Shown in pieces: positions 1 through 43,225 of a stretch of 43,225 nucleotides of DNA. Location: NCBI GenBank assembly GCA_017651515.1, contig JAGCCU010000010.1, forward strand, positions 1-43,225, in the 5' to 3' direction. Numbering within the stretch: position 1 is the first letter of the stretch; each line of letters starts with the position of its first letter. Origin of the DNA: Muribaculaceae bacterium (lineage in GTDB: Bacteria; Bacteroidota; Bacteroidia; Bacteroidales; Muribaculaceae). A program made the translations under genes and the position numbers. Under the pieces are notes generated by a model. It worked only from the letters and a program-made list of their open reading frames with translations. It had not been told where the DNA came from and ran no database searches.

Positions 1-1
1 A

Positions 2-349
2 AATTCACCACGCCAAGCCGACTACATCATGTGCCAGGGAACTATTACCTACCGTATGGCACCTGTTCTCAAGCGACTTTATGAGCAGATGGCTGAACCC
101 AAATATGTCATTGCATGTGGTGCATGCACAGTGAGCGGCGGCCCATTTAAGAATAGCTATTGCGTAGTCAAGGGTATCGATGAGATTATACCGGTGGATG
201 TTTATCTGCCAGGATGTCCTCCACGTCCCGAATCCATGTTCTATGCACTCATGCAACTTCAACGAAAAATTAAAGTCACCAAATTCTTCGGTGGCGCCAA
301 TCGCAAAGAAAAACTCACCTATCAGCCCGAAGAGGCTAAAGCCGAGTAA
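2..349 (+). CDS. nuoB: NADH-quinone oxidoreductase subunit B (3' part; 5' end outside the window)
   Basis: NuoB carries the terminal [4Fe-4S] cluster N2 of complex I and passes electrons to quinone at the interface with NuoD. The reading frame is open from base 2, upstream of the first internal ATG at 29, so the gene begins outside the window. Visible family signatures are SPRQADYI, the [12 protein letters not shown] segment, a cysteine in the ACGACT stretch and the PGCPPRPE motif, whose cysteine ligates N2; the two adjacent N-terminal cysteines would lie upstream. A charged C-terminal tail ends the protein. It is followed 42 bases later by nuoCD. Identification is secure; only completeness is unknown. 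Confidence 0.95.
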
Positions 350-391
350 CCAAAGGAATATTCACTAAAACGAGCATATACATTATTATAT

Positions 392-2041
392 ATGGCAGAC
401 TTACAAGAACAATTAGGCAAGCTTTGCCCCGAAGCTCAAATCGACACAACTGGCGAATGGCCGTTGCTGACCATAGAGAATACCAAATGGCATGACACTG
501 CCAAATTGCTAAAAGAGCAACTACACTTTGACCAGCTCATGGCTTTGGTAGGTTTGGACTGGGGTGACAAGTTAGGGGTTATGTATTACCTCACCAATAC
601 CCAGTCGGGCGACATAATTCACATCAAGGTTGAAGCAGAGAACAGAGACAAACCATATATTTATAGTATCAGCGACCTTTGGGCGGTGGCAAATTATCAA
701 GAACGTGAAGCCTATGACTTCTACGGCATCATTTTCGTCAACCACCCCGACATGCGTCGCTTTTTCTTACGCAACGACTGGGTCGGTCACCCGCTTCGCA
801 AAGACTATGACGCAAATCCAGAGTTGAACCCTATTCGCCTTGAGGATGAGACCAATGAGGATTACACTTGCCGCTACGTGGAAAACGAAGAAGGCAAGAT
901 TGAGAAAATAGAAGGCAAGGTATTCGATGACGATGAATACGTGATCAACTTCGGTCCACAGCATCCTTCTACCCACGGTGTGATGCGCTACCGCGTATCG
1001 CTTGACGGTGAGATTGTCAAGAAGGTGGATGTGGTGAGCGGATACATTCATCGCGGTATCGAGAAGATGTGCGAAAGCCTCACCTATCCCCAGACTCTAC
1101 TTTATCCTGAACGAATGGACTACATGGCGGCCCATATCAACCGCCACTGCCTGTGCCTATGCATTGAAAAAGCCATGGGCATTGAAGTGCCTCACCGTGC
1201 AGAGTTGATACGCCTGATGATGGACGAACTCATGCGTCTTTCTTCTCACTTGCTCAGCTACGGATGTCTCACCATGGACCAAGGTGCCACAACCGCATTC
1301 TTCTATGCTTTCCGTGACCGCGAGCTCATTTACGACATTTTCGATCGCACTTGTGGCGCTCGCATGTCAATGAGCTACTCAACCATAGGCGGTGTCGTAG
1401 CCGACGTTCATCCCGACTTCATCAAAGATGTTCGTCACGCGTGCGATGTGATTGAGAAAAACCTCAAGGAGTATCACCAATTATTTACCGGTAACGTAAT
1501 TGCACGCAATCGCATGATAGGCGTCGGACTTCTGAGTAAAGAAGATGCCATTAACTATAGTATTACCGGTCCTAGCGGACGTGCTAGCGGATGCCATTGT
1601 GACGTTCGCAAGACTCACCCCTACTCTCTTTACGACGAATTTGAATTTGATGAGGTAGTACGTGAAGAGGGTGACAGCATGGCGCGTTACATGGTTCGTA
1701 TGGACGAGATGGTGCAGTGCATAAAGATCCTTCGCCAAGCCTGCGACAAGCTTGAACAAGAAGGCGAACAGGGCGAATACATTGCCAAGGTGCCAAAGAT
1801 GATAAAACTCCCTGCGGGACATTGGTATCAGCAAGTTGAGGCCAGCCGTGGCGCTTTCGGTGTATATATTGAAAGTGACGGCGACAGTAAGCCCTTCCAG
1901 AAACCCACCCGCATGCACTTCCAGACACCATGTTTCAACCTGATTGGCGTGGTGGATCTGACCTGTCGTGACAACATGATTGCCGACCTTATAACCATTA
2001 CGGCATCAATCGACTTTGTGATACCCGACATTGACAGATAA
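392..2041 (+). CDS. nuoCD: Fused NADH-quinone oxidoreductase subunit C/D
   Basis: One 549-residue protein joins NuoC (about residues 30-145) to NuoD (about 180-549). The NuoC half shows the EREAYDFYGIIF signature and the GHPLRKDY motif. The NuoD half starts near the conserved GPQHPSTHG (residues 188-196), which contains the histidine that lines the quinone site, followed by YIHRGIEK and ERMDYMAAH with the quinone-site tyrosine. It ends in the usual IDFVIPDIDR. NuoCD bridges the peripheral and membrane arms of complex I on the cytoplasmic side. The linker at about 150-180 is rich in Glu and Asp. There is no Shine-Dalgarno, which is normal for Bacteroidota. The C/D fusion is known in several bacterial groups including Bacteroidales. 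Confidence 0.97.
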   Translation: MADLQEQLGKLCPEAQIDTTGEWPLLTIENTKWHDTAKLLKEQLHFDQLMALVGLDWGDKLGVMYYLTNTQSGDIIHIKVEAENRDKPYIYSISDLWAVANYQEREAYDFYGIIFVNHPDMRRFFLRNDWVGHPLRKDYDANPELNPIRLEDETNEDYTCRYVENEEGKIEKIEGKVFDDDEYVINFGPQHPSTHGVMRYRVSLDGEIVKKVDVVSGYIHRGIEKMCESLTYPQTLLYPERMDYMAAHINRHCLCLCIEKAMGIEVPHRAELIRLMMDELMRLSSHLLSYGCLTMDQGATTAFFYAFRDRELIYDIFDRTCGARMSMSYSTIGGVVADVHPDFIKDVRHACDVIEKNLKEYHQLFTGNVIARNRMIGVGLLSKEDAINYSITGPSGRASGCHCDVRKTHPYSLYDEFEFDEVVREEGDSMARYMVRMDEMVQCIKILRQACDKLEQEGEQGEYIAKVPKMIKLPAGHWYQQVEASRGAFGVYIESDGDSKPFQKPTRMHFQTPCFNLIGVVDLTCRDNMIADLITITASIDFVIPDIDR

Positions 2042-2095
2042 TGTTGCATTACCGAGATGAATTAATTTTGAAATAAACTGTAATTCAATAATAAT

Positions 2096-3172
2096 ATGTT
2101 TGACTTTTCTACAGTCGCCAACTGGCTCGATGAGTTGCTAAAAAGCGTTATGCCTTCGTGGCTGGCAATCACAACCGAGTGCATATTAGTGGCAATTTTC
2201 CTGCTCGCAGCCTATTCCATTATAGCAATGATTTACATCATGTATGAGCGTTGGGTATGCGGTTGGATTCAGTGTCGTCGTGGTCCTATTCGTGTGGGAC
2301 CTGCCGGCTCGTTGCAGATTTTTGCCGATGTTGTAAAAATACTCTCCAAGGAAATTATCACCCTGTGGAGTACCGATAAGTTCTTGTTCTTCTTGGCTCC
2401 ATTCTTGGTGGTGCTGGCATCAGTCCTCACTTTTGCCTGTCTGCCATGGGGCAAGGGATTGCAGTTTATTGATTTCAATATCGGTGTATTCTTCATCATT
2501 GCAGTTTCATCAATAGGTGTATTAGGCATCCTGCTTGCAGGTTGGTCGAGTAATAGCAAATATACCCTTATCGGCGCTATGCGATCAGGCGCGCAGATGA
2601 TAAGCTATGAACTGTCGGTAGGCATATCCATTCTTACCATCGTATGCCTTGCAGGAACGATGAGCATCACTGGCATTGTTGAAGCCCAATCTGATGGATG
2701 GTTCTTATTCAAGGGGCATCTACCGGCAATCATTGCTTTCATTATATATATCGTTGCCGCGAATGCCGAAAACAACCGCGGCCCATTCGACCTTCCTGAA
2801 GCTGAACATGAACTCACTGCAGGTTACCATACAGAGTATTCCGGTATTCACTATGGATTGTTCTATCTAGCTGAATACCTGAACCTCTTCGTGGTTAGCG
2901 GAATAGCATCATTGTTGTTCCTGGGTGGCTGGATGCCACTGCACATTCCCGGATGGGAAAGTTTTAACACCGTCATGGACTATATTCCTAGTACAATATG
3001 GTTCCTTGGTAAAGCATTCTTCATGACATTCATTTTCATGTGGATTCGCTGGTCATTTCCTCGTGTCCGTATCGACCAGATGCTTGCTCTGGAATGGCGT
3101 TACCTCATGCCCATAGGACTTGTAAACCTTGTAGTTATGGCAATAGTGGTTACTCAGGGTTGGCACTTTTAA
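2096..3172 (+). CDS. nuoH: NADH-quinone oxidoreductase subunit H
   Basis: NuoH is the membrane subunit that contacts NuoB, NuoD and NuoI and forms the quinone chamber of complex I. At 358 residues it has the usual family length and about eight hydrophobic helices. Diagnostic segments are RRGPIRVGPAGSLQIFAD, the KEIITLWSTDK loop and the acidic loop NNRGPFDLPEAEHELTAGYH with conserved Glu residues. The end is hydrophobic and close to the next gene, atpD, 42 bases later. In other Bacteroidales nuo operons nuoI normally follows nuoH; here eight atp genes come first. Start ATG at 2096 is the first in frame and fits the family N-terminus. Confidence 0.96.
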   Translation: MFDFSTVANWLDELLKSVMPSWLAITTECILVAIFLLAAYSIIAMIYIMYERWVCGWIQCRRGPIRVGPAGSLQIFADVVKILSKEIITLWSTDKFLFFLAPFLVVLASVLTFACLPWGKGLQFIDFNIGVFFIIAVSSIGVLGILLAGWSSNSKYTLIGAMRSGAQMISYELSVGISILTIVCLAGTMSITGIVEAQSDGWFLFKGHLPAIIAFIIYIVAANAENNRGPFDLPEAEHELTAGYHTEYSGIHYGLFYLAEYLNLFVVSGIASLLFLGGWMPLHIPGWESFNTVMDYIPSTIWFLGKAFFMTFIFMWIRWSFPRVRIDQMLALEWRYLMPIGLVNLVVMAIVVTQGWHF

Positions 3173-3190
3173 TTAAATAGAAAACATTAA

Positions 3191-4720
<1,530 letters not shown>

Positions 4721-4769
4721 TGACAAAAGTTAAAGTGCATAAACCGTCACTATATAAATTTGAATATTA

Positions 4770-5006
4770 ATGACACTCAAGATTATATCGGCTCAACAAA
4801 TTGAATATGAAGGCGAAGTCACATCAGTGACGTTGCCAGGAGCATTGGGCATGTTTCAAGTCCTGAATAATCACGCCGCGCTCATCGCTGCTCTTACAAC
4901 TGGCAAGGTGACATACGTCACCAGCGACAACCAGACCGCAGAGCAGACAATAGAAGGTGGCATAGCTGATATTAAGGATAATGTAGTGAGTGTATGCATT
5001 TATTAA
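4770..5006 (+). CDS. atpC: F1Fo ATP synthase subunit epsilon (short form)
   Basis: The 78-residue protein matches only the N-terminal beta-sandwich domain of epsilon. It contains the GEVTSVTLPGALGMFQVLNNHAAL-type region (with the LPGALGMF and LNNHA cores) and ends soon after GGIADIKDNVVSVC. The C-terminal two-helix domain, which brakes ATP hydrolysis in E. coli and Bacillus, is absent. Short epsilon subunits are usual in Bacteroidota, so this is a lineage trait rather than a truncation; there is no in-frame continuation. The gene lies 49 bases after atpD and only 4 bases before the likely ATG of atpB, which suggests translational coupling. Confidence 0.93.
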   Translation: MTLKIISAQQIEYEGEVTSVTLPGALGMFQVLNNHAALIAALTTGKVTYVTSDNQTAEQTIEGGIADIKDNVVSVCIY

Positions 5007-5010
5007 TATT

Positions 5011-6072
5011 ATGAGGAAAGTTTTATCAGCAATTATCGCTCTAGTGATTGTCGCATTAATGGCCTTTGGTTATTATCGAGCGGCAAGTCACCATCATGGC
5101 TCTGGTGAAGTAAATCCCAAAGAAATCATCTATGAGCATCTGGGTGATGCCTATGGCTGGGAGATACCTTTCGCTCATGACGTACGCATACCTCTACCTG
5201 TCATTGTCAAGGGCAATGATGGCTGGCATTGCTTTATGAGCAATAAGGTGACTGGCGGCGAGACCTATGAAGGTTTTAAAATAGACCATGGCGGTGAACA
5301 TAACGGCAAAATAGTTCAAATTGTTGATGGTGGCAAAGAGGTAAGGCCATTGGATTTTTCAATCACCAAGAACGTTGCAGCAATATTCGTTGCAGCACTC
5401 ATCGTGATATTAATGGTGTTCAGTATTCGCAACTGGTATAAAAAACATGGCATGAAGGCTCCCAGGAAAGGAACGGCGTTTCTGGAACTCATTGTAGATT
5501 ATGTCTACTACGATACCATACGCCCTATAATGGGAAAAGACGCACCCAAATACGCGCCTTACCTCCTTACGGTATTCTTCTTTATACTGACCATGAACCT
5601 GATGGGCCTGATTGTCATATTCCCAGGTGGAGCAAATCTGACCGGCAACCTCGCTGTAACAATGGTTCTTGCCTTAATCACGTTCTTTATTATCAACCTT
5701 ACTGGCACAAAAGAATACTGGAAAGAGATACTCTGGCCCGACGTGCCCATGGCACTAAAGTGTCCCGTGCCCATGATGCCATTTATTGAAATACTCGGCA
5801 TGTTTACCAAGCCTATAGCTCTGATGATTCGTCTCTTTGCCAACATGATGGGTGGACACATGGTAGTGCTCGTGCTTATGCTGCTCATATTCATATTCAC
5901 AAGCATGTTTGGAGCCATTGTTGGAGGTGCAACAACTGTTTTCTCTCTTGCATTTGCCCTGTTCATGCTTGCACTTGACACACTGGTAAGTTTCATTCAA
6001 GCTTATGTATTTACCATACTGTCGACTATCTTTATCTCTATGTCTCACGTAGAGCCACATCATCACGAATAA
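5011..6072 (+). CDS. atpB: F1Fo ATP synthase subunit a, with extended N-terminus
   Basis: Subunit a forms the proton half-channels next to the c-ring. The essential arginine is Arg274 in the IRLFANMMGGHM motif, and a glutamine-containing helix near the C-terminus (VSFIQAYVF) supplies the second conserved region. A GTG at 4990 is in frame and overlaps atpC, but ATG 5011 gives MRKVLSAIIALVIVALMAF, which is a good signal-type helix, so 5011 is preferred (353 residues). Residues about 25-120 form a hydrophilic, His/Gly/Asp-rich segment before the canonical membrane core. Many Bacteroidota subunits a share such an extension. No atpI-like gene is found between atpC and atpB. The C-terminus is histidine-rich (HVEPHHHE). 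Confidence 0.95.
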   Translation: MRKVLSAIIALVIVALMAFGYYRAASHHHGSGEVNPKEIIYEHLGDAYGWEIPFAHDVRIPLPVIVKGNDGWHCFMSNKVTGGETYEGFKIDHGGEHNGKIVQIVDGGKEVRPLDFSITKNVAAIFVAALIVILMVFSIRNWYKKHGMKAPRKGTAFLELIVDYVYYDTIRPIMGKDAPKYAPYLLTVFFFILTMNLMGLIVIFPGGANLTGNLAVTMVLALITFFIINLTGTKEYWKEILWPDVPMALKCPVPMMPFIEILGMFTKPIALMIRLFANMMGGHMVVLVLMLLIFIFTSMFGAIVGGATTVFSLAFALFMLALDTLVSFIQAYVFTILSTIFISMSHVEPHHHE

Positions 6073-6126
6073 AGAATTAGATAACAACGAAATAATTAAC
6101 AACACAATAACAATTAAAAACTTTAG

Positions 6127-6372
<246 letters not shown>

Positions 6373-6392
6373 TTTAACTCAACTTTGAGATA

Positions 6393-6890
6393 ATGGAACT
6401 TTTCACGCCTGAATTTGGCTTAGTCTTCTGGATGTTTATAGCATTTGCATGCCTATATTTCATCCTGGCAAAATATGCATGGCCTTATATCATTAAGAGC
6501 ATGGAAGAACGTGCAGACCTAATTGATAAAGGTGTTGCTTATGCACAAGAGGCTAAGGCACAATTAGACAATGCTAAGGCAGAAGCCGACAAAGTCATTG
6601 CCGAAGCACACCAGCAACAGGCAGAAATACTTCGTGAAGCCTCTAAACTGAAGAATCAGATTATCGAAGATGCCAAGGGCGAGGCTGCCATTGAAGCAAA
6701 GAAAGTTTCTCAAGCCGCTCAGGTGTCGATTGAACAAGCTCGCAAGGAAAGCGAAAAACAACTTAGGCAAGAAGTGGGTGAAATTGCCCTTCAGATTGCA
6801 GAAAAAGTACTTCGCAAGAATGTTAGCAATGATTCGGCACAGCGAGAGTTGGTTGATCAATATCTGAGTGAGGTTGAGACTAATAACTAA
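6393..6890 (+). CDS. atpF: F1Fo ATP synthase subunit b
   Basis: The 165-residue protein has one N-terminal membrane helix (about residues 8-27, ending at KYAWPYI) followed by a long charged Ala/Glu/Lys/Gln helix that forms the peripheral stalk. The pattern AQEAKAQLDNAKAEADKVI is typical of the dimerising coiled-coil region. Its C-terminal part, VGEIALQIAEKVLRKNV, matches the delta-binding end of b subunits. There is a single b gene and no b' paralogue in the operon, so a homodimer is expected. It starts 20 bases after atpE and ends 6 bases before atpH. Confidence 0.95.
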   Translation: MELFTPEFGLVFWMFIAFACLYFILAKYAWPYIIKSMEERADLIDKGVAYAQEAKAQLDNAKAEADKVIAEAHQQQAEILREASKLKNQIIEDAKGEAAIEAKKVSQAAQVSIEQARKESEKQLRQEVGEIALQIAEKVLRKNVSNDSAQRELVDQYLSEVETNN

Positions 6891-6896
6891 TGCTAT

Positions 6897-7436
6897 ATGA
6901 ATGACGGACTGATTCCTAAACGGTATGCCAAGGCGCTTTATAAGCTAGCCAAGGAAAATGGTGACACGCAGGAAATCTATGAACTGCTGAAAACCATGAG
7001 TCGCGGCCTTAAAGGCCTTGACGACGTGAAGCGTGTCATGCTGAACCCAAAGATTCCAAATGAAGACAAGGGAAAGGTAATGATGCAGGTGATTGGCGCA
7101 CAACCAGGCAGCTCGCTCGACAAATTCATATTGCTGGTGATTAAAAATAACAGAACCGAGCTATTGCGAAAAATCGCACTTTCTTATGTAAACATCTATC
7201 GAGAGGAACACAATATTGCCAAATTAGAAATCACTACGGCAACACAGCTTCCTCAAGAAAAGATTGACAACATCGTGGCTGTTGTCAAGCAACACCTTGG
7301 TGACTTGACATATGAGATTGAGCACAAAATCGACCCAGAACTCATAGGAGGTTTTACTGTCAAGGTTGGCGATACCCTGCTCAATGCCTCGGTGAAGAAT
7401 GAACTAAATCAATTGCGTTTAAAACTAATAAGTTAA
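6897..7436 (+). CDS. atpH: F1Fo ATP synthase subunit delta
   Basis: The 179-residue protein connects the top of F1 to the b stalk. The start PKRYAKALYKLAKENG is the typical delta (OSCP) N-terminal motif. The second half contains KLEITTATQLPQEKIDNIV, and near the C-terminus PELIGGFTVKVGDTLLNASV is the conserved delta signature with GG and D residues. It lies between atpF and atpA with gaps of 6 and 3 bases, so coupled translation is likely. Confidence 0.95.
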   Translation: MNDGLIPKRYAKALYKLAKENGDTQEIYELLKTMSRGLKGLDDVKRVMLNPKIPNEDKGKVMMQVIGAQPGSSLDKFILLVIKNNRTELLRKIALSYVNIYREEHNIAKLEITTATQLPQEKIDNIVAVVKQHLGDLTYEIEHKIDPELIGGFTVKVGDTLLNASVKNELNQLRLKLIS

Positions 7437-7439
7437 CTA

Positions 7440-9017
7440 ATGATTAACCCAAGCGAAATTTCCGATATACTGAAACAGCAACTCAGTGACATTGAACGTA
7501 ATGTATCGTTTGAGGAAGTTGGCACAGTACTTGAGGTTGGCGATGGTGTAGCACACGTTTACGGTCTGAGCAACGTTGAGGCAAACGAGCTAGTGAAGTT
7601 TGAAAACGGTGTGACTGGTGTTGCAATGAACCTTGAGGAGAGTGACGTGGGTGTTATACTTCTCAATGAGGTTGACTCCATTTCTGAAAACATGAAAGTG
7701 AGTCGCACTGGTGAGATCGCTTCTATTGAAGTGGGTGAAGGATTGCTGGGTCGTGTTATCAACGTACTGGCAGAACCCATCGACGGTAAGGGAAGCATCG
7801 ACGGCGAGCGCATTCGTCTGCCTCTCGAAAGAAAAGCACCAGGCGTAATATTCCGCCAACCAGTGAACCAACCTCTTCAGACCGGATTAAAAGCAATCGA
7901 CTCGATGATTCCTATCGGTCGTGGTCAGCGTGAGCTCATTATCGGTGACCGACAAATTGGTAAAACTGCCATTGCTATCGACACTATAATTAACCAGAAA
8001 TCGGCCTACGAAGCAGGAAAGCCAGTATATTGTATATATGTTGCTATCGGCCAGAAAGCCTCAACAGTAGCTGCCTTGGTCAACAAACTCAACGAGGAAG
8101 GCGCTATGCCCTACACAATTGTAGTGGCTGCTACTGCTGCCGACTCGGCTTCGATGCGCTATTATGCACCATTTGCAGGTGCTGCTATTGGCGAGTATTT
8201 CCGTGACACTGGTCGCGATGCTCTGGTAATTTACGATGACCTGTCAAAGCACGCCGTGGCTTATCGTGAAATCTCTCTGATCCTTAAACGGCCTTCAGGA
8301 CGTGAGGCTTATCCAGGTGATATTTTCTACCTTCATAGCCGTCTGCTTGAAAGAGCTGCTAAGATAAATGAGAATCAAGATGTGGCTTCGGTGATGAACG
8401 ATCTTCCTGATGTGCTCAAACCATTGGTAAAAGGAGGTGGTTCTCTTACAGCATTGCCCATTATTGAGACTCAGGCTGGTGACGTGAGTGCATATATTCC
8501 AACCAACGTCATTTCTATCACCGATGGTCAGATTTACCTTGAAACTGCGCTTTTCAATGCAGGTATTCGCCCAGCTGTAAACGTGGGTATCTCGGTGAGC
8601 CGTGTCGGTGGTAACGCACAGATTAAGTGCATGAAAAAAGTGGCTGGCACTCTGAAGATTGCACAGGCTCAGTATCGCGAGCTCGAAGCATTCACCAAGT
8701 TTGGTGGTGACATCGACCCAGTGACTGCACGAACAATCGACACCGGTCGTAAAAATGAGCGTTTGCTCGTTCAGGCGCAATATGAGCCCATGCCTGTAGA
8801 AGAACAAGTTGCCATCATCTATTGTGGTGTAAACGGTCTTCTTCAACGAGTCCCTCTTGATCAAGTGGACGACTTTGAGAAACTATTTATCCAGTATCTC
8901 AAAGCCAAACATCAGAACGACGTACTCGATGTACTTCGCTCAGGCAAAATTGATGACGATGTAATGGCTAAACTCAAAGCTGCTGCCCAGGAGATTGCCG
9001 GCAAATATACAGCTTGA
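7440..9017 (+). CDS. atpA: F1Fo ATP synthase subunit alpha
   Basis: The 525-residue alpha subunit binds non-catalytic nucleotide and alternates with beta in F1. The Walker A sequence GDRQIGKT lies at residues 169-176. Other landmarks are the N-terminal [20 protein letters not shown] beta barrel segment, the [16 protein letters not shown] motif, and the [11 protein letters not shown] signature in the C-terminal half, which includes the arginine finger region. Length and ends match the family. The start ATG at 7440 follows the atpH stop by 3 bases. Confidence 0.98.
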
Positions 9018-9043
9018 TGAATTCTATTAATCGGTTTTGATTT

Positions 9044-9928
9044 ATGTCAACACTACGTGAACTGAAAAGCCGCATTGGTTCAGTTGCCTCGACACAAAAG
9101 ACTACGAGCGCAATGAAGATGATATCCTCTGCCAAGATGCGTAAAGCTACCGGGGGATTGCAACGCCTGTCGCCATATCGTGATATGGTACAGCGTGTGA
9201 TAAGCCATCTTCTGGTCACCGACCAGGAGTTTTCCTCCCCCCTCATTGCTCAACGTGAAGTGAATCGTATTGCATTGCTCACTTTTGGCAGTGATGATGG
9301 GTTATGCGGCGCATTCAACATCAATATTTTCAAACAACTGCTTGTCACCATAGGTGATGTGCAGAAGGCATTTGGTAAAGACGTTGAAATCACGATCATT
9401 CCCATAGGCAAAAAGCTCACAAAGGCATCAAACAAGCTCAAAAACGACAATATAAAAGTTGAGGCCACTTCACTGAACACAAGAAGTGACTATGACCAAC
9501 TGCACGAGTTTACTCAACAGCTTAGACATCGTTTCCTTGATGGGGAGTTTGACCGTATTGATGTGCTATACATGCATTTCATTTCTACAAGTCGCCAACG
9601 CTTCTCCAGGGAGCAGTTGCTTCCTGTGAGATACGAAGCTCTTGTCGATCAGGTTGATGCAAAAACGGCAGCACAACCTTGTTTGTTTGAGCCTGATGCC
9701 AATACAATATTTAACAGCGTATTACCTTTACACATGAGAGCAATGATGCAAGAGGTATTCACTGAAAGTGCTGCCAGCGAGCAGGCAGCACGCGTTATGG
9801 CAATGCAGACAGCCAGCGACAATGCAAAGGAACTGCTTGATGAGTTGAACTTGGAATACAACAAGTTGCGTCAGCAAAGTATTACGACCGAGTTGCTTGA
9901 CATCTTGGGTGGACAAGTACAACGGTAG
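9044..9928 (+). CDS. atpG: F1Fo ATP synthase subunit gamma
   Basis: The 294-residue central shaft protein begins with STLRELKSRIGSVASTQKTT and MISSAKMRKA, the conserved N-terminal helix. It ends with an Arg- and Leu-rich helix containing NKLRQQSITTELLDILGG, the conserved C-terminal helix; the two would form the coiled coil inside the alpha-beta hexamer. The middle, with SDDGLCGAFN, is the Rossmann-like domain. This is the last atp gene. The next gene, nuoI, starts 50 bases later after a small hairpin at 9934-9947, so atpG marks the right-hand boundary of the ATP synthase block within the nuo operon. Confidence 0.96.
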   Translation: MSTLRELKSRIGSVASTQKTTSAMKMISSAKMRKATGGLQRLSPYRDMVQRVISHLLVTDQEFSSPLIAQREVNRIALLTFGSDDGLCGAFNINIFKQLLVTIGDVQKAFGKDVEITIIPIGKKLTKASNKLKNDNIKVEATSLNTRSDYDQLHEFTQQLRHRFLDGEFDRIDVLYMHFISTSRQRFSREQLLPVRYEALVDQVDAKTAAQPCLFEPDANTIFNSVLPLHMRAMMQEVFTESAASEQAARVMAMQTASDNAKELLDELNLEYNKLRQQSITTELLDILGGQVQR

Positions 9929-9933
9929 TATTA

Positions 9934-9947
9934 GCCGAATTATCGGC
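9934..9947 (+). other. Small hairpin at the atpG-nuoI junction
   Basis: GCCGA at 9934-9938 pairs with TCGGC at 9943-9947 around the loop ATTA. It begins 5 bases after the atpG stop and is followed by an AT-rich stretch but not by a clean T run. It may be a weak attenuator, a processing site or a stabilising 3' end of the atp part of a shared transcript. The pairing is seen directly; the function is inferred. Confidence 0.45.
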
Positions 9948-9978
9948 ATAAAATTTGATTTTAATAATATAGAATAAA

Positions 9979-10638
9979 ATGAGCATTAAGGAGTATTTCG
10001 TTTCTCTTTTTAAAGGCATCTATAGCCTAATTAAGGGTATGGAGGTGACAGGCAAAGAGCTTGTGACTCCAAAAGTAACTGAACAGTACCCCGAAAATCG
10101 GGCTACCCTGCAAATACCAGAACGCTTCAGGGCAACACTGCAATTCATTTACGATGAGCAAGGCAACCACAAGTGTATTGGCTGCCGTAGTTGCGAACGT
10201 AATTGCCCCAATGGGACAATTCACATCGACACCCGCATGGTGGACTTGCCCAATGGCAAGAAAAAAATGAAACTTGACAAGTATACCTACGACTTGGGAA
10301 GTTGCACTTTCTGCGGGCTCTGCGTTCAGTCTTGTCCGACGTCAGCGATCGAATTCAGTAATGATTTCGAGCAGGCCGTGTTCCGTCGCGACACTTTGGT
10401 AAAGCAGCTTAATTATTTACCTGAAAAGGACGAACCTGCTCCTGAAGCATCTGCACCTAAAAAAGAAGAGGTGAAACCTGAAACTAATGCCGAAAAGCCA
10501 GAAGACAAAAAAGCCCCAACTGAAGCCAAGGCTGAAGCTGCTGGTGCCGACTCCCCCAAGAAGACTCAGAGTGATGATACGGCAATCGGCACCGATGAGG
10601 TTACACAAGTCGTAAAAAACGAAAATAAAGAAGAATAA
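9979..10638 (+). CDS. nuoI: NADH-quinone oxidoreductase subunit I with long charged tail
   Basis: NuoI carries the two [4Fe-4S] clusters N6a and N6b leading to N2. Two ferredoxin motifs are complete: Cys66, 69, 72, 76 (CIGCRSCERNCP) and Cys109, 112, 115, 119 (CTFCGLCVQSCP). An N-terminal amphipathic helix (residues 5-20) fits membrane contact. Residues about 150-219 form a tail of Ala, Glu, Lys, Pro, Asp and Thr with no predicted fold, making this protein (219 residues) longer than the roughly 160-180 residues common in the family. The gene restarts the nuo series after the atp block. As no nuoE, F or G is seen nearby, the chain to which NuoI connects is probably fed by ferredoxin or flavodoxin. 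Confidence 0.95.
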   Translation: MSIKEYFVSLFKGIYSLIKGMEVTGKELVTPKVTEQYPENRATLQIPERFRATLQFIYDEQGNHKCIGCRSCERNCPNGTIHIDTRMVDLPNGKKKMKLDKYTYDLGSCTFCGLCVQSCPTSAIEFSNDFEQAVFRRDTLVKQLNYLPEKDEPAPEASAPKKEEVKPETNAEKPEDKKAPTEAKAEAAGADSPKKTQSDDTAIGTDEVTQVVKNENKEE

Positions 10639-10642
10639 TCTT

Positions 10643-11158
10643 ATGGAATCACTAGGAAACATCATTATGTATTTCGTGATTGCACTGGCAATCATAGTGT
10701 TTTCGGTGCTGACGGTCACTACTCGCAAGATTCTGCGCTCGGCCACTTACTTGCTCTTTACGCTCTTTGCCACTGCCGCGCTGTACTTCCAGCTCGACTA
10801 TGCATTTCTGGGCGCGGTGCAAATTGCTGTCTATGCGGGAGGTATCGTTGTATTATTTGTATTCTCGATTCTGCTCACACAAAAACCCGGTGAAGATGCA
10901 GCTCCACTATCTTCTCATCGCAAGTGGCTCGGCATAATCACTGCTGTTGCCGGTGTAGCAGTCTGCGGATGCGCTGTTTTCTCGTATGCCCAGTTCTGCG
11001 GGCAACTGATGCCTGATATGGCTGCGCCAAGCATCGAGAACATCGGAAAATTCCTGCTCAGCACTGATAAGTTAGGATACCTTCTGCCTTTTGAGGCTGT
11101 AAGTGTTCTGTTGTTAGCATGTATAATTGGAGGTGTGGTTATAGCCCGTCGCCGTTAA
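10643..11158 (+). CDS. nuoJ: NADH-quinone oxidoreductase subunit J
   Basis: This 171-residue membrane protein has five hydrophobic helices. The conserved segment is FLGAVQIAVYAGGIVVLFVF, where the pi-bulge helix of NuoJ lies; this helix is central to coupling quinone reduction to proton pumping. It starts 4 bases after the nuoI stop and ends 17 bases before the nuoK start. The C-terminus is short and basic (ARRR), consistent with a cytoplasmic end. Confidence 0.95.
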   Translation: MESLGNIIMYFVIALAIIVFSVLTVTTRKILRSATYLLFTLFATAALYFQLDYAFLGAVQIAVYAGGIVVLFVFSILLTQKPGEDAAPLSSHRKWLGIITAVAGVAVCGCAVFSYAQFCGQLMPDMAAPSIENIGKFLLSTDKLGYLLPFEAVSVLLLACIIGGVVIARRR

Positions 11159-11161
11159 ATG

Positions 11162-11169
11162 AAAGGAGA
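11162..11169 (+). promoter_or_regulatory. Strong Shine-Dalgarno before nuoK
   Basis: The run AAAGGAGA lies 6 bases before the nuoK ATG at 11176. It is unusual for this window, where most starts have no such site, and it settles the start: the reading frame is open further upstream to 11119, inside nuoJ, but ATG 11176 has both the ribosome site and the family N-terminus. Confidence 0.7.
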
Positions 11170-11175
11170 TTAATT

Positions 11176-11487
11176 ATGAATTTGACACTTTTAATGTATC
11201 TCATTCCCAGTCTGATAATGTTCGGCTGTGGCGTTTACGGCTTTCTCACCCGTAAGAATATGATTGCCATCATGATATCGCTTGAGCTCATGCTCAATTC
11301 CATAGATATCAATTTTGTAGTGTTTAACCGATATTTGTTCCCAGGTCAGATGGAGGGAATGTTCTTCACTCTGTTCGCAATAGCCATTGCTGCAGCTGAA
11401 ACAGCACTTGCCCTTGCCATCATCATCAATGTTTTCCGCATTGCTAAGGACGTGGATATTAACAAGATCAATAAACTGAAATTTTAA
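11176..11487 (+). CDS. nuoK: NADH-quinone oxidoreductase subunit K
   Basis: The 103-residue, three-helix antiporter-like subunit has the two membrane glutamates needed for proton translocation: one in MISLELMLNSI and one in AIAAAETALALAI. The chosen start ATG 11176 gives MNLTLLMYLIPSLIMFGCGV, matching the family, whereas the longer open frame runs back into nuoJ. A strong Shine-Dalgarno precedes it. The C-terminal tail (DVDINKINKLKF) is hydrophilic. nuoL follows after 5 bases. Confidence 0.95.
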   Translation: MNLTLLMYLIPSLIMFGCGVYGFLTRKNMIAIMISLELMLNSIDINFVVFNRYLFPGQMEGMFFTLFAIAIAAAETALALAIIINVFRIAKDVDINKINKLKF

Positions 11488-11492
11488 CGACT

Positions 11493-13484
11493 ATGCCACT
11501 AAGTTATACAATAGCAGTTATTGCCATCCCTTTGATAATGTTCTTGTTTCTGGGACTGTCAGGAGTGAAAATGGGAAAGAAAACCACAGGCATAATCGGA
11601 GTTATCGCCATGCTGATAACAACAATTCTTGCCTATGGGGTTGCTCTTACCTACTTCTTCGGCTCCAGTGAAGGACAAATTGTTGATGGCGTACGCAAAG
11701 CCGTGACAGTATTCAATCCCGACTGGCTGACATTCAGCGACACGCTCGTTGTGAGAATGGGCATCATGCTTGACCCTATAGCGGCAATGATGCTTATCGT
11801 TATAACCACCGTCTCGCTTATGGTGCATCTCTACAGTCTTGGCTATATGTGCGACCACCATGGCAACGCTGAAAAAGGATTTCAACGCTACTATGCCTTC
11901 CTTGCCCTGTTTACGTTCTCAATGCTCGGACTGGTAGTCGCTACCAATCTATTCCAGATTTTCATCTTCTTTGAGATGGTGGGTGTCTCGTCTTATCTGC
12001 TCATCGGTTTCTACTATACCACCCCTGCAGCCAATCACGCAAACAAGAAAGCATTCATCGTCACACGTCTTGCCGACCTGTTTTTCCTTATCGGTATTCT
12101 CATTCTGAGTTTCTATACACAGACGTTCGATTTCTTCAGCAACAACGTGAATGGCATAATCGGTATGCTTGACGATCCACAGGCATCGTTGGCACAGGCA
12201 GGAACAACGACGTTCATGGGTTGTTCGGCGATGGCATGGGCTCTGACATTCATTTTCATCGGCGGTGCTGGCAAGAGTGCCATGTATCCATTGCACATCT
12301 GGCTTCCTGACGCCATGGAAGGTCCCACCCCAGTATCTGCTCTCATCCATGCTGCTACGATGGTGGTAGCCGGAGTTTTTCTGGTTGCACGACTGTTCCC
12401 GATGTACGTGTTGGTACAGGGGACAATGGACATCATCTGTGTGGTGGGTGCGTTCACTGCATTCTATGCTGCGGCCATCGCTTGTGTACAAAGCGACATC
12501 AAACGAGCTCTGGCATTCTCCACAATTTCACAGATTGCCTTCATGATGACTTCACTGGCTGTTTCCAGTGCCGACGGACAGCTAATCGAAATACATGGAG
12601 GTTACGGGCTCGGATTCATGGCTTCAATGTTCCACCTGTTCACACATGCAATGTTCAAGGCGTTGCTCTTCCTCTGTGCTGGTGCAATCATTCACGCTGT
12701 ACACAGTAATGAGAATGACAAAATGCACGGTCTGCACAAATACATGCCTATAACAAGCATTGCATTCCTCATTGGGTGTCTGGCGATTGCAGGTATTCCT
12801 CCATTCGCCGGATTCTGGAGTAAGGATGAAATCCTTGTTGCTGCTTATGAAAAAGGCATCGGCTGGGGCATCTGGATGACGATGGTAGCTGGTATGACCG
12901 CATTCTACATGTTCCGAATCTACTTCCTCATCTTCCACTGGAAGAAACACGAAGTACACACCGAGCACGAACCTGCCGACCAGCCTTGGACCATGACATT
13001 GCCGCTCATCATTTTAGCAGCCATCTCAATAGTAGCAGGATTTGTGCCAGCTGCCAAGCTTGTCACTTGGGATGGCACACCACTTCACACCCAGCTCAAT
13101 TGGACCATTGCTGGCACGAGCGTTCTGATTGCTTGCATTGGCATTGGTCTAGCTTATAAGATGTATTATAAAGAAAATGACCTGCCCGAACGAATGGCAA
13201 ACAGTTGCCGAGGTTTATGGACTGCTGCATACAAACGCTTCTACATGGACGAACTGTACCAGTTCATCACTCACAAGGTGATTTTCCAAGGCATCTGCAA
13301 ACCTATAGCAAAGTTTGACCGTGCCATCATTGATGGATTCTTCAACATGCTTGCCGAAGTTACTAACCGCACAAGTTTCGGCATTCGCAAGATGCAGTCG
13401 GGCTCTATTCAGGGTTATGTGTATTTCTACCTCATTGGTGTGCTACTGCTAGCAGTGATCACCATGGCATGTGTTCTCTTGTAG
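11493..13484 (+). CDS. nuoL: NADH-quinone oxidoreductase subunit L
   Basis: This 663-residue protein is the distal Mrp-type antiporter subunit of the membrane arm. The signature FFEMVGVSSYLLIGFYY contains the conserved glutamate, GGAGKSAMYPLHIWLPDAMEGPTP-type sequence (seen here as GKSAMYPLHIWLPDAMEGP) holds the conserved lysine, and LIHAATMVVAGVF follows. The C-terminal 120 residues carry an amphipathic lateral helix and a last membrane helix, as in full-length NuoL. It lies between nuoK and nuoM with gaps of 5 and 27 bases. Confidence 0.97.
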   Translation: MPLSYTIAVIAIPLIMFLFLGLSGVKMGKKTTGIIGVIAMLITTILAYGVALTYFFGSSEGQIVDGVRKAVTVFNPDWLTFSDTLVVRMGIMLDPIAAMMLIVITTVSLMVHLYSLGYMCDHHGNAEKGFQRYYAFLALFTFSMLGLVVATNLFQIFIFFEMVGVSSYLLIGFYYTTPAANHANKKAFIVTRLADLFFLIGILILSFYTQTFDFFSNNVNGIIGMLDDPQASLAQAGTTTFMGCSAMAWALTFIFIGGAGKSAMYPLHIWLPDAMEGPTPVSALIHAATMVVAGVFLVARLFPMYVLVQGTMDIICVVGAFTAFYAAAIACVQSDIKRALAFSTISQIAFMMTSLAVSSADGQLIEIHGGYGLGFMASMFHLFTHAMFKALLFLCAGAIIHAVHSNENDKMHGLHKYMPITSIAFLIGCLAIAGIPPFAGFWSKDEILVAAYEKGIGWGIWMTMVAGMTAFYMFRIYFLIFHWKKHEVHTEHEPADQPWTMTLPLIILAAISIVAGFVPAAKLVTWDGTPLHTQLNWTIAGTSVLIACIGIGLAYKMYYKENDLPERMANSCRGLWTAAYKRFYMDELYQFITHKVIFQGICKPIAKFDRAIIDGFFNMLAEVTNRTSFGIRKMQSGSIQGYVYFYLIGVLLLAVITMACVLL

Positions 13485-13511
13485 ATTCATAACTTGTAAA
13501 AATAATAGATT

Positions 13512-15047
13512 ATGGAAATATTTAATAATATACTGATTTATTTTGTAATCGTTCCATTGCTCACCATATTAGGGCTTGCATTCTGCTCCAATAGGGGTAT
13601 AGGTGCAGTCAGAGCAGTGGCAGTAGCAGGAGCCACGGTGCTGATGGCACTTGCCGGCTACTTGGTTTACTTGTTTTTACAAGCTCGTGGAGCTGGCGAT
13701 ACCAGCGAGATGATTCTGTGCAGCGAAGTGACATGGTATGCACCACTGAACATTAAGCTCGCCCTTGGCGTGGATGGTGTCAGTGTGGTTATGATTCTGC
13801 TTTCTGCATTCATTGTCTTTGCCGGAGTATTTGCTTCATGGAAAATGGATCCGCTGCCAAAGCAATTTTTCCTTTGGTTCTTCCTCTTGTCGACTGGTGT
13901 ATTCGGTTTCTTCATCTCAATTGACCTCTTCACCATGTTCATGTTCTATGAGGTTGCACTCATCCCCATGTACCTGCTCATTGGCGTATGGGGTAGCGGA
14001 AACAAGAACTATAGTGCCATGAAGCTCACCTTGATGCTGATGGGTGGTTCTGCGTTCCTGATGCTTGGCATTATTGGTATCTACTTCCACTCTAGTGCTG
14101 ACGGACAATGGACTATGAATATCCTTGAAATTGCCAAGAATGATGCTATCCCCCACTCCTGGCAGATGTGGCTCTTCCCGCTTACATTCATTGGCTTTGG
14201 TGTGCTTGGAGCAATGTTCCCGTTCCACACATGGTCGCCCGATGGTCATGCATCAGCGCCTACGGCGGTCTCAATGCTACATGCCGGCGTGCTTATGAAG
14301 TTGGGAGGCTATGGTTGCTTCCGCATTGCCATTTATCTGATGCCGTTTGCTGCCAACGAGCTTGGATGGATTTTCCTCACACTCACTGGCATCAGTATCG
14401 TCTATGGTGCATTTAGCGCATGTGTTCAGACCGACCTCAAGTATATCAACGCTTATTCTTCGGTCAGTCACTGCGGTATGGTACTTTTCGCAGTGCTGAT
14501 GTTCAATACTACAGCAATGACCGGTGCCGTCCTGCAGATGCTTTCACACGGCTTGATGACAGCATTGTTCTTTGCATTGATCGGTATGATTTATGGACGC
14601 ACACACACGCGCGACATTCGCGACATGGGTGGCCTAATGCACATTATGCCATATCTGGGTGTAGGATATGTTCTGGCTGGTCTCGCTTCGCTGGGATTGC
14701 CAGGACTGAGCGGTTTCGTAGCCGAGATGACTATCTTTGTTGGTTCTTACATGCACACCGATATCTTCCATCGAGTGCTGACCATTGCTGCTACCTGCTC
14801 AATCGTCATCACCGCAGTTTATATCCTGCGTGTAGTTGCGAAGTTACTCTTTGGTGACGTGCAGAATGAGCACCACCGAGAGCTCACCGACGCCAGCTGG
14901 GAAGAACGCTTGTCAACCGCAACGCTTATTATAGCAGTGGCAATAATCGGTTGCTTCCCCAACTTCTTCGTAAATATTATCAGCGACAGCTTCCTGCCCA
15001 TCGTGGGAGCTCTCGAAAACGCAGCCCATGCTGCTGGTGTGATGTAA
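13512..15047 (+). CDS. nuoM: NADH-quinone oxidoreductase subunit M
   Basis: The 511-residue antiporter-like subunit has about 14 hydrophobic segments. Diagnostic motifs are FMFYEVALIPMYLLIGVWG with the conserved glutamate, MFPFHTWSPDGHASAPTAVS in the lysine/histidine helix region, and SYSSVSHCGMV-like INAYSSVSHCGM. It is complete and ends 36 bases before nuoN. It forms the middle proton channel of the membrane arm. Confidence 0.97.
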   Translation: MEIFNNILIYFVIVPLLTILGLAFCSNRGIGAVRAVAVAGATVLMALAGYLVYLFLQARGAGDTSEMILCSEVTWYAPLNIKLALGVDGVSVVMILLSAFIVFAGVFASWKMDPLPKQFFLWFFLLSTGVFGFFISIDLFTMFMFYEVALIPMYLLIGVWGSGNKNYSAMKLTLMLMGGSAFLMLGIIGIYFHSSADGQWTMNILEIAKNDAIPHSWQMWLFPLTFIGFGVLGAMFPFHTWSPDGHASAPTAVSMLHAGVLMKLGGYGCFRIAIYLMPFAANELGWIFLTLTGISIVYGAFSACVQTDLKYINAYSSVSHCGMVLFAVLMFNTTAMTGAVLQMLSHGLMTALFFALIGMIYGRTHTRDIRDMGGLMHIMPYLGVGYVLAGLASLGLPGLSGFVAEMTIFVGSYMHTDIFHRVLTIAATCSIVITAVYILRVVAKLLFGDVQNEHHRELTDASWEERLSTATLIIAVAIIGCFPNFFVNIISDSFLPIVGALENAAHAAGVM

Positions 15048-15083
15048 TGTAAAAGTGTTGAATCATTTGAAAAAGAAATTGAT

Positions 15084-16550
15084 ATGGATTATTCTCAATT
15101 TTTAATGATGCCGCAAGAAATTGGACTTTTGATAGTATTCTTGTTAGTGTTCATTTACGACACTTTTATGCCCGCCAGGGCGCAACGGTTCTTGCCCATT
15201 TTCACCACCATACTGTTTGCCATCTACACAGCTTTCAGCTTTATTCCGTGCCAAATGGGGGAACTCTTCGGTGGAATGATGGAAACCAACCCTGCCACAT
15301 GGGTAATGAAGTGCATCCTCAACATAGGCGTGTTTATCGTGTTTCTACAAGCCATAAAGTGGACCAATGAAGACTTCGTGAGTGTTCGACGTGGAGAATT
15401 CTACGAGTTGATACTTCTCACGTTGTTTGGAATGTTCCTCATGATATCGTCACGACACTTCCTGCTATTTGTCATTGGACTAGAGACTGCGTCGCTCCCC
15501 ATTGCTGCTCTCACTGCATTTGAGAAACGCCACTACGAGAGCCATGAAGCTGCTGCAAAGTATATCTTCACAGCAATCTTCTCAAGCGCAATTTTCATGC
15601 TTGGCATCTCGTTTGTCTATGGTATGAGCGGTTCTCTTTATTTCAACGATATTGCCAATGCCCTCTCGCTTATCAGTAGCAAAAGCATATTACTCTTTGT
15701 AGCAGTGGCATTTGTGATAGCAGGTGTGGGATTCAAGCTGTCGCTTGTTCCATTCCACCAATGGACTGCCGACGTTTATCAAGGCGCGCCCACTGCTGTT
15801 ACCAGCTACCTTTCCGTTATAAGCAAGGGTGCCGCAGCATTTGCGTTCTTAATTATTCTCGTTCAGGTGTTCGGTTCTGCCTATCACCAGGTATGGGAAT
15901 GGATGTTGTACGCTATAATCATCCTTACCATTACCATTGGCAACTTGTTTGCAATTCGCCAGCACAACCTGAAGCGCTTCCTTGCGTTCTCATCAATCTC
16001 TCAGGCTGGCTACATCATGCTTGGTGTGATTGCAGCAAGCACTGTTGGCATGGCGTCAATGATTTACTACATTCTGGTTTACATTTTCTCCAATCTGGCC
16101 GCCTTCGGTGTAATTGCCGCTATTGAACGCCAGACTGGCAAAGTAACCATGGACGACTACAACGGATTGTTTAAAACCAATCCTTGGATGGCATTTACCA
16201 TGATGCTTGCCATGTTCTCACTTGGTGGTATTCCTCCATTTGCTGGTTTCTTCAGCAAGTTCTTCATCTTTGTAGGTGCTGCCAGTACAGGAAGTGTGGC
16301 AATCTATGTATTGGTTTTCATTGCATTGGTTAATACCATCATATCGCTCTACTACTATCTGCTCGTGGTAAAGGCAATGTTCATCCGTCAAGATGAATGT
16401 GCTATCCCCTACATTGACAGTCACTGGACCGAGGAACTGGGTATGACAATCTCCGTTATGGGCATTATTGCTGTCGGTATTGCCAGCAATGTCTATACGT
16501 TCATGTCTCAAATCAGCGACAGCGTGATCCACATCTTCCACCTGATTTGA
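15084..16550 (+). CDS. nuoN: NADH-quinone oxidoreductase subunit N
   Basis: The 488-residue protein is the third antiporter-like subunit. It contains LFVIGLETASLPIAALTAF with the conserved glutamate, FKLSLVPFHQWTADVYQGAP with the conserved lysine, and FLAFSSISQAGYIMLGV. It is the last gene of the nuo-atp series and is followed by a strong terminator at 16577-16610. No nuoE, nuoF or nuoG follows, so the encoded complex would have subunits B, CD, H, I-N (with A expected upstream of the window) and no NADH-binding module here. Confidence 0.97.
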   Translation: MDYSQFLMMPQEIGLLIVFLLVFIYDTFMPARAQRFLPIFTTILFAIYTAFSFIPCQMGELFGGMMETNPATWVMKCILNIGVFIVFLQAIKWTNEDFVSVRRGEFYELILLTLFGMFLMISSRHFLLFVIGLETASLPIAALTAFEKRHYESHEAAAKYIFTAIFSSAIFMLGISFVYGMSGSLYFNDIANALSLISSKSILLFVAVAFVIAGVGFKLSLVPFHQWTADVYQGAPTAVTSYLSVISKGAAAFAFLIILVQVFGSAYHQVWEWMLYAIIILTITIGNLFAIRQHNLKRFLAFSSISQAGYIMLGVIAASTVGMASMIYYILVYIFSNLAAFGVIAAIERQTGKVTMDDYNGLFKTNPWMAFTMMLAMFSLGGIPPFAGFFSKFFIFVGAASTGSVAIYVLVFIALVNTIISLYYYLLVVKAMFIRQDECAIPYIDSHWTEELGMTISVMGIIAVGIASNVYTFMSQISDSVIHIFHLI

Positions 16551-16576
16551 TAACTAGGGAACTTTTATATTCAGTC

Positions 16577-16610
16577 AAACGGCTGGGGCAGCATATGTCC
16601 CAGCCGTTTT
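16577..16610 (+). terminator. Rho-independent terminator of the nuo-atp operon
   Basis: A perfect 11-bp stem pairs 16577-16587 (AAACGGCTGGG) with 16599-16609 (CCCAGCCGTTT) around an 11-base loop; the right arm runs into four T residues. It begins 26 bases after the nuoN stop, so it ends the long operon. Confidence 0.9.
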
Positions 16611-43058: not shown

Positions 43059-43131
43059 GCGAAAGTAGCTCAGTTGGTAGAGCGCGACCTTGCCAAGGTC
43101 GAGGTCGCGGGTCCGAGTCCCGTCTTTCGCT
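43059..43131 (+). tRNA. tRNA-Gly (anticodon GCC)
   Basis: The 73-nt cloverleaf is complete. The acceptor stem pairs GCGAAAG (43059-43065) with CTTTCGC (43124-43130), discriminator T. The anticodon stem CGACC/GGTCG closes the loop TTGCCAA with GCC in the middle. The D arm (GCTC...GAGC) and the T arm (GCGGG/CCCGT with one G-U, loop TCCGAGT) are standard. CCA is not encoded. Confidence 0.95.
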
Positions 43132-43158
43132 CAAGTTCATAGAATTAGATGTTTAGGC

Positions 43159-43176
43159 TCATCGCTCAGGCGATGA
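43159..43176 (+). other. Hairpin between the two tRNA-Gly copies
   Basis: TCATCGC at 43159-43165 pairs with GCGATGA at 43170-43176 around TCAG. It has no T run and is probably part of the shared precursor, perhaps a processing signal. Confidence 0.5.
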
Positions 43177-43181
43177 ATGTT

Positions 43182-43225
43182 GCGAAAGTAGCTCAGTTGG
43201 TAGAGCGCGACCTTGCCAAGGTCGA
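43182..43225 (+). tRNA. Second tRNA-Gly (GCC), cut by the window edge
   Basis: The last 44 bases are identical to the first 44 bases of the tRNA-Gly at 43059, through the anticodon loop. The 3' half lies outside the window, so only a tandem copy of the same tRNA can be claimed. Confidence 0.9.

Follow-up and report, generated by a model that had tools for sequence, protein, structure and literature searches.

Why do the genes for an ATP synthase lie inside the locus for respiratory complex I, and are the two machines made from one message? The question is raised by a stretch of 43,225 nucleotides from a Muribaculaceae bacterium (GenBank assembly GCA_017651515.1, contig JAGCCU010000010.1), hereafter the window, in which gene identities and intergenic distances place the atp genes within the nuo genes. 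From the contig start to position 16610, on the plus strand, the order is nuoB-CD-H, atpD-C-B-E-F-H-A-G, nuoI-J-K-L-M-N (Table 1). We consider it probable that this is the Muribaculaceae form of an eighteen-gene energy operon, nuoA-B-CD-H-[atpDCBEFHAG]-nuoI-J-K-L-M-N, whose promoter and terminator signals suggest co-transcription. The block is common to five Bacteroidales families, and within it we found no recurrent internal promoter box and few internal terminator-like hairpins.

A first-pass annotation of the window had proposed this order on one strand, gaps of at most about 57 bases, a complete ATP synthase operon and a single strong terminator at the end, and each of these points was borne out. 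Profile searches returned the expected family for 17 of the 17 open reading frames in the block, with nuoC, nuoD, nuoI and atpC scoring under the curated cut-offs of the best-named TIGR models. Neighboring genes overlap by up to 40 bases or lie up to 57 bases apart. The F-type ATP synthase has its full set of eight subunits, atpC in a short form. Complex I is represented by subunits B, C, D, H, I, J, K, L, M and N. The window is one entire contig of a draft assembly (2.49 Mb, 85 contigs, 87% complete) and begins within nuoB, the 5' end of which is missing. We did not find nuoA in the source assembly, where a combined NuoA and NuoB query matched only window positions 2-334; NuoA was seen in a close relative (L009). 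None of the 17 named frames is nuoE, nuoF or nuoG, a negative that covers only these frames. A PF00006 search of the source genome found no second F-type ATP synthase: its three matches are the atpA and atpD of the window and a 687-aa frame on another contig. This third ATP-synt_ab match (G000:C40:30966-31583, L003) lies in a frame whose size would fit the A subunit of a V/A-type ATPase.

To place the arrangement among relatives, we located nuoH, atpD and nuoI in genomes of increasing distance. By name labels only, the host falls in Muribaculaceae: the near named loci belong to Muribaculaceae metagenome genomes, including one Candidatus Sodaliphilus, with others labeled Porphyromonadaceae, Prevotellaceae or Bacteroidales. 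Among 12 genomes of the same genus, nuoH adjoins atpD in 11 and atpG adjoins nuoI in 10, the misses being contig breaks or genes not found. In the family sample, source genome included, nuoH and atpD adjoin in 114 of 119 genomes (one contig, within about 160 bases, or a single alignment; read by hand). The five genomes without the pair are G113, with the genes on different contigs, G065, G067 and G095, with no AtpD match, and G059, with no NuoH match. The order sample, also read by hand, comprised 75 genomes, two from the family of the window (f1) and one from each of 73 others; the nested genomes are the two of f1 and one each of f22, f28, f60 and f68, with no other family represented. A wider set from these four families shows the nuoH-atpD adjacency in 29 of 29 genomes (f22 9/9, f60 5/5, f68 7/7, f28 8/8), and NuoI lies 5.1-5.3 kb past AtpD in 26 of the 29, the remaining three having contig breaks or a missing match. 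A one-species oddity is ruled out by the 114 family genomes together with the 29 from four more families, and an order-wide trait by the restriction to five families of the Bacteroidales sample. The search across Bacteroidales proposed by the first-pass annotation thus identifies an old trait of the family and four more families, but not one of the whole order.

In a further 21 genomes of the order sample, a NuoH match (50% identity or more) and an AtpD match lie on different contigs, which in draft assemblies does not prove distance between the two genes. G168 has AtpD and a NuoH-like match of only 44%; G158 and G187, near relatives with a nuo operon, have a NuoH match and no F-type AtpD match at E 1e-30. 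In a phylum sample of 80, the source genome is the only nested case among the matches listed. In at least four genomes of f88, another family of the same phylum (G258:C56, G278:C48, G297:C20, G301:C4), AtpD lies about 9-12 kb from a NuoH-like match of 44-45% identity on the opposite strand, neighboring and not nested. Passages of Ormerod et al. (PMC4936053) name Barnesiella and Coprobacter as the closest characterized genera to the S24-7 family; as a guess, f22, f28, f60 and f68 may be relatives of these genera.

We assembled 41 nested loci, comprising the window, 10 from the five families and 30 named loci (two of them, L010 and L039, from one genome). The recognized gene order is unbroken in all 41, and ten hold all 18 genes. 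The adjacencies that the first-pass annotation had singled out for checking recur throughout: atpD begins less than 200 bases from nuoH in 38 of the 40 loci that run past nuoH, the window included, and atpG lies less than 200 bases from nuoI in 32 of the 32 that hold both genes. The surroundings of the block are far less constant. Among 179 flanking frames from 11 nested loci, 21 cluster with another nested family and 9 with a non-nested locus. Retention of the block over five families while most of its surroundings differ argues for constraint since its origin, without showing the cause. Beyond nuoN, DUF362-like and polyferredoxin-like genes (assigned by eye) occur in both nested G188 (L044) and non-nested G152 (L064). 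These shared downstream neighbors weakly suggest that the block occupies the old nuo site and hence that atp moved into nuo. The same two genes may point to the donor that supplies electrons to the NuoEFG-less complex I. In another nested locus (L020:6105-6926), about 110 anomalous bases close to the contig end interrupt the atpD frame, either an assembly fault or real.

Signals for transcription are concentrated at the two ends of the block. The Bacteroidales promoter consensus, as given in the passages of PMC7366714 cited here, is TAnnTTTG at -7 with TTTG near -33; a generic sigma-70 scan is of little use in this order and was replaced by a scan for TAnnTTTG. Within 150 bases upstream, this box precedes nuoA in 24 of 36 nested loci, atpD in 0 of 39 and nuoI in 2 of 32 (the opposite strand, as a control, gave 4, 3 and 4, respectively). 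The region upstream of nuoA is the only recurrent position of a Bacteroidales-type promoter in the nested block. Two-box promoter-like sites lie within 250 bases upstream of nuoA in 25 of 36 regions; within 516 kb of block there are 11 on the sense strand, one of them at the start of atpD in G188, and 9 on the opposite strand. For non-nested atpD genes, the best site within 250 bases upstream ends in TAnnTTTG in four of seven (G020, G152, G184 and G018), a count without a control at that distance. At the other end, each of the 11 nested loci that extend far enough has a strong hairpin behind nuoN, and 8 of these hairpins come with a T tract. Under the same fixed test, T-tract hairpins are found in none of 32 atpG-nuoI spacers and, apart from the nuoH-atpD spacer considered below, in none of the other internal spacers. 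Because the nuoA box recurs, the atpD box is missing and a terminator follows nuoN, a single promoter would serve both machines; the pattern of one promoter, eighteen genes and one terminator supports predicted co-transcription.

Nesting as such is already known in Muribaculaceae, because Ormerod et al. reported the integration in 2016 (PMC4936053). The passages of that paper cited here describe, for S24-7 or 'Ca. Homeothermaceae' (now Muribaculaceae), an 11-subunit complex I without NuoEFG and an F-type ATP synthase, found in 26 of 30 genomes, whose genes lie inside the locus for complex I; the family is the same here, and the nuo operon likewise shows no nuoEFG. Those passages do not describe gene order or junctions, analyze promoters or mention other families; these points are added here. 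In the open-licence literature, we found no mention of the single origin, the shared insert, the hairpin that varies between species, the absence of an atpD promoter or the extension to four further families that we describe, and the words 'ATP synthase' do not occur in two papers on Prevotella copri. The nuo operon of Bacteroides fragilis (BF638R_0850-0841) likewise lacks nuoEFG but, in the passages of Ito et al. (2020; PMC7002350), comprises ten consecutive genes by locus tags with no mention of atp genes inside. According to the same passages, deletion of nuo made no significant difference to NADH:quinone oxidoreductase activity, and the donor is called unknown. The first-pass annotation was also right that nuoI usually follows nuoH in Bacteroidales, as it does in 8 of 8 non-nested nuo loci and as the ten consecutive nuo genes of B. 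fragilis agree. Stand-alone atp operons of the order, in G020 and G015, have the same order atpD-C-B-E-F-H-A-G as the nested block. That of G020 lies outside nuo, on a contig other than that of its nuo genes, and G015 has no NuoH match; the non-nested G015 and G152 differ in an extra frame between atpC and atpB.

Nested genomes form a single clade in each of three trees, all rooted at the midpoint only. In the RpoB tree of 23 genomes, the 10 nested genomes group with support 99/97. Of 24 RpoB loci found, the tree uses 23 (the fragment L103 was left out), and G030 had no RpoB match. The concatenated NuoB, H, I and K tree (19 rows) unites 11 nested genomes with support 100/99, and the AtpD tree (39 rows) unites 11 with support 100/100. 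The AtpD rows were chosen by hand from a first tree of 78, excluding G230 and G257, whose odd make-up and very long branches probably reflect wrong frames taken by a longest-frame rule. In all three trees, f22 groups with f1 inside the nested clade; within it, AtpD pairs G156 with G196, and RpoB pairs G196 with G188 and G211. Since the nested genomes are monophyletic in the RpoB, Nuo and AtpD trees, one ancestral event followed by vertical descent is the simplest reading.

We propose that, in the ancestor of this clade, an atp operon became placed between nuoH and nuoI and then lost its own promoter, and that transcription of its genes has since started at the nuoA promoter, along with that of a NuoEFG-less complex I. 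Both machines would then probably be made from one message. Complex I would pass electrons from its donor to menaquinone while pumping protons, and the F-type synthase would use the resulting gradient, leaving two separate, ordinary machines joined by the gradient. Nesting would couple the timing and rough amount of both, with fine tuning left to the translation of individual genes and, in some species, to hairpins between atpG and nuoI. The ALIEGVA stretch of AtpE, read by eye against the motif rule for sodium-binding residues, suggests a synthase of the proton type. Most probably, the locus serves an ordinary proton circuit in which pump and synthase are made together. A bolder version, in which this gut Bacteroidales clade has brought its ATP synthase under the control of the promoter that drives a non-NADH complex I, makes it only with the pump and may gain from the gene order a side-by-side assembly of both as a physical or spatial unit, strikes us as improbable; no result measured here points to physical coupling of pump and synthase. 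If co-transcription holds, promoter control in a large group of gut bacteria could not change complex I independently of ATP synthase, offering a clean natural case for whether the ratio of pump to ATP synthase matters. Given a single origin and a five-family spread, the nesting would also be a useful marker of common descent in Bacteroidales.

Several observations weigh against a single message of single origin. No TAnnTTTG box lies within 150 bases of nuoA in 12 of the 36 upstream regions, and the nuoH-atpD spacers of L010 and L011 hold a terminator-like hairpin (2 of 38 by the fixed test). The nuoH-atpD junction is opened in L008, where a gap of 2,377 bases carries a 716-aa frame (11139-13289) of foreign look, with leucine-rich-like repeats and a dockerin-like tail by eye. 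The same gene follows nuoH in L013 (2349-3607; 98.3% identity over 1,321 bases). The identity of the two inserts indicates that the insert is real and that the junction tolerates insertion; it is the only junction break seen among nested loci. Folding energies of -8 kcal/mol or below occur in 17 of 31 atpG-nuoI spacers versus 3 of 38 nuoH-atpD spacers, and also in 13 of 29 atpD-atpC, 9 of 23 atpA-atpG and 9 of 36 nuoB-nuoCD spacers, which differ in length. The atpG-nuoI hairpins vary in sequence by species: some are long, near-perfect palindromes, other spacers have no hairpin, and those of G196 and L032 resemble weak terminators by eye and fail the fixed test. Such hairpins could shorten or terminate transcripts behind atpG and thereby separate the two halves. 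The single promoter that the first-pass annotation had envisaged is supported by the pattern of promoters and terminators; the fixed ratio that it suggested may be undone by the atpG-nuoI hairpins of about half of the loci, which could uncouple the two halves. Finally, the three trees place the closest non-nested genomes differently. In the RpoB tree, G014 lies close to the nested clade, which it does not in the Nuo or AtpD trees; G020 and G015 are far in the RpoB tree, where they are weakly placed, and near in AtpD, G020 in Nuo as well. Given this conflict, more than one route is possible for the arrival of the atp block.

The hairpins speak for genes nested by place and separate in expression, with atp and nuoI-N keeping promoters that our scans missed, most atp transcripts ending after atpG and the arrangement carrying little regulatory meaning. 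In a loose two-box scan, 2 of 39 atpD upstream regions do score 9 of 10, and promoters of other types would be invisible to a consensus scan. We nevertheless consider this explanation unlikely, given the contrast between atpD and nuoA in the TAnnTTTG box and a terminator test that detects 8 of 11 hairpins after nuoN and none between atpG and nuoI. A neutral accident, fixed once and kept only because any later cut would leave one half of complex I with no promoter, has in our judgment somewhat less than an even chance of being the explanation. It agrees with one origin in three trees, with the harm that a break moving one half away would do after loss of the atp promoter, and with the inserted gene tolerated by two relatives. 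The first-pass annotation had likewise offered a chance insertion without harm, which is possible as an origin, but the hold of the block in five families amid differing flanks argues for constraint since then. The hold speaks for constraint and not for its cause, and no result here separates an accidental start from later selection.

An origin of the atp operon outside the clade, followed by insertion into nuo, appears distinctly unlikely to us. In its favor, G158 and G187, which are among the non-nested genomes closest in the RpoB tree, have no F-type beta match at the threshold used, G020 and G015 share an AtpD group with the nested clade yet are distant in the RpoB tree, and a long stem branch (0.4) leads to nested AtpD. 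However, the closest AtpD group to the nested clade consists of non-nested Bacteroidales (G015, G020, G152 and G148; 100/99), of which G152 is also near in RpoB (100/100), and the order D-C-B-E-F-H-A-G is identical in G020 and, plus one extra frame, in G015. G014 (L078, L079) has the atp order B-E-F-H-A-G-D-C, a split nuoC/nuoD and divergent nuo genes, and the position of its AtpD elsewhere in the tree suggests that its ATP synthase was replaced; with the missing AtpD matches of G158 and G187, this indicates that ATP synthase was also lost or replaced near the nested clade. The nested atp block is likely the clade's own old operon. The chance that an assembly error or chimera in a metagenome contig created the arrangement is negligible, even for a draft in 85 contigs: the same two junctions recur in other genomes at the frequencies given above, for example in G112 and G211 (each on one contig), and in named records, which refutes an artefact and confirms the junctions as true genome structure.

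Table 1. Coordinates of genes, junctions and terminator of the nuo/atp block in the window.
Feature	Position	Strand	Evidence
nuoB, 5' part beyond contig start	2..349	+	TIGR01957, E 2.8e-43
nuoCD, C and D fused	392..2041	+	NuoD TIGR01962, E 7.5e-117; NuoC TIGR01961, E 2.2e-31; both below cut-off
nuoH	2096..3172	+	PRK06076 models, best E 6.4e-99
Junction 1, nuoH-atpD	3173..3208	+	no terminator-grade hairpin and no TAnnTTTG box found
atpD, F1 beta	3209..4720 (alternative ATG 3215)	+	TIGR01039, E 2.4e-232
atpC, short F1 epsilon, 78 aa	4770..5006	+	TIGR01216, E 1.3e-16; 60.8 bits, below curated cut-off of 67.25
atpB, Fo a subunit	4990..6072 (alternative ATG 5011)	+	TIGR01131, E 1.1e-35
atpE, Fo c subunit, ion-site stretch ALIEGVA	6130..6372	+	TIGR01260, E 8.4e-15
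atpF, Fo b subunit	6393..6890	+	TIGR01144, E 4.2e-29
atpH, F1 delta	6897..7436	+	TIGR01145, E 6.7e-33
atpA, F1 alpha	7440..9017	+	TIGR00962, E 1.6e-222
atpG, F1 gamma	9044..9928	+	TIGR01146, E 1.1e-74
Junction 2, atpG-nuoI, small hairpin, MFE (minimum free energy) -8.4	9929..9978	+	RNA folding
nuoI	9979..10638	+	TIGR01971, E 7.6e-30; 103 bits, below cut-off of 113.05
nuoJ	10643..11158	+	PRK06638 models, best E 2e-23
nuoK	11119..11487 (likely start ATG 11176)	+	PRK05715 models, best E 1.9e-27
nuoL	11493..13484	+	TIGR01974, E 8.8e-166
nuoM	13512..15047	+	TIGR01972, E 1.2e-124
nuoN	15084..16550	+	TIGR01770, E 1.7e-112
Intrinsic terminator 3' of nuoN, hairpin and T tract	16577..16610	+	sequence; like hairpins in other nested loci

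At the far end of the window, positions 43059-43225 hold a tRNA-Gly gene and a second tRNA match that is truncated at the contig end.

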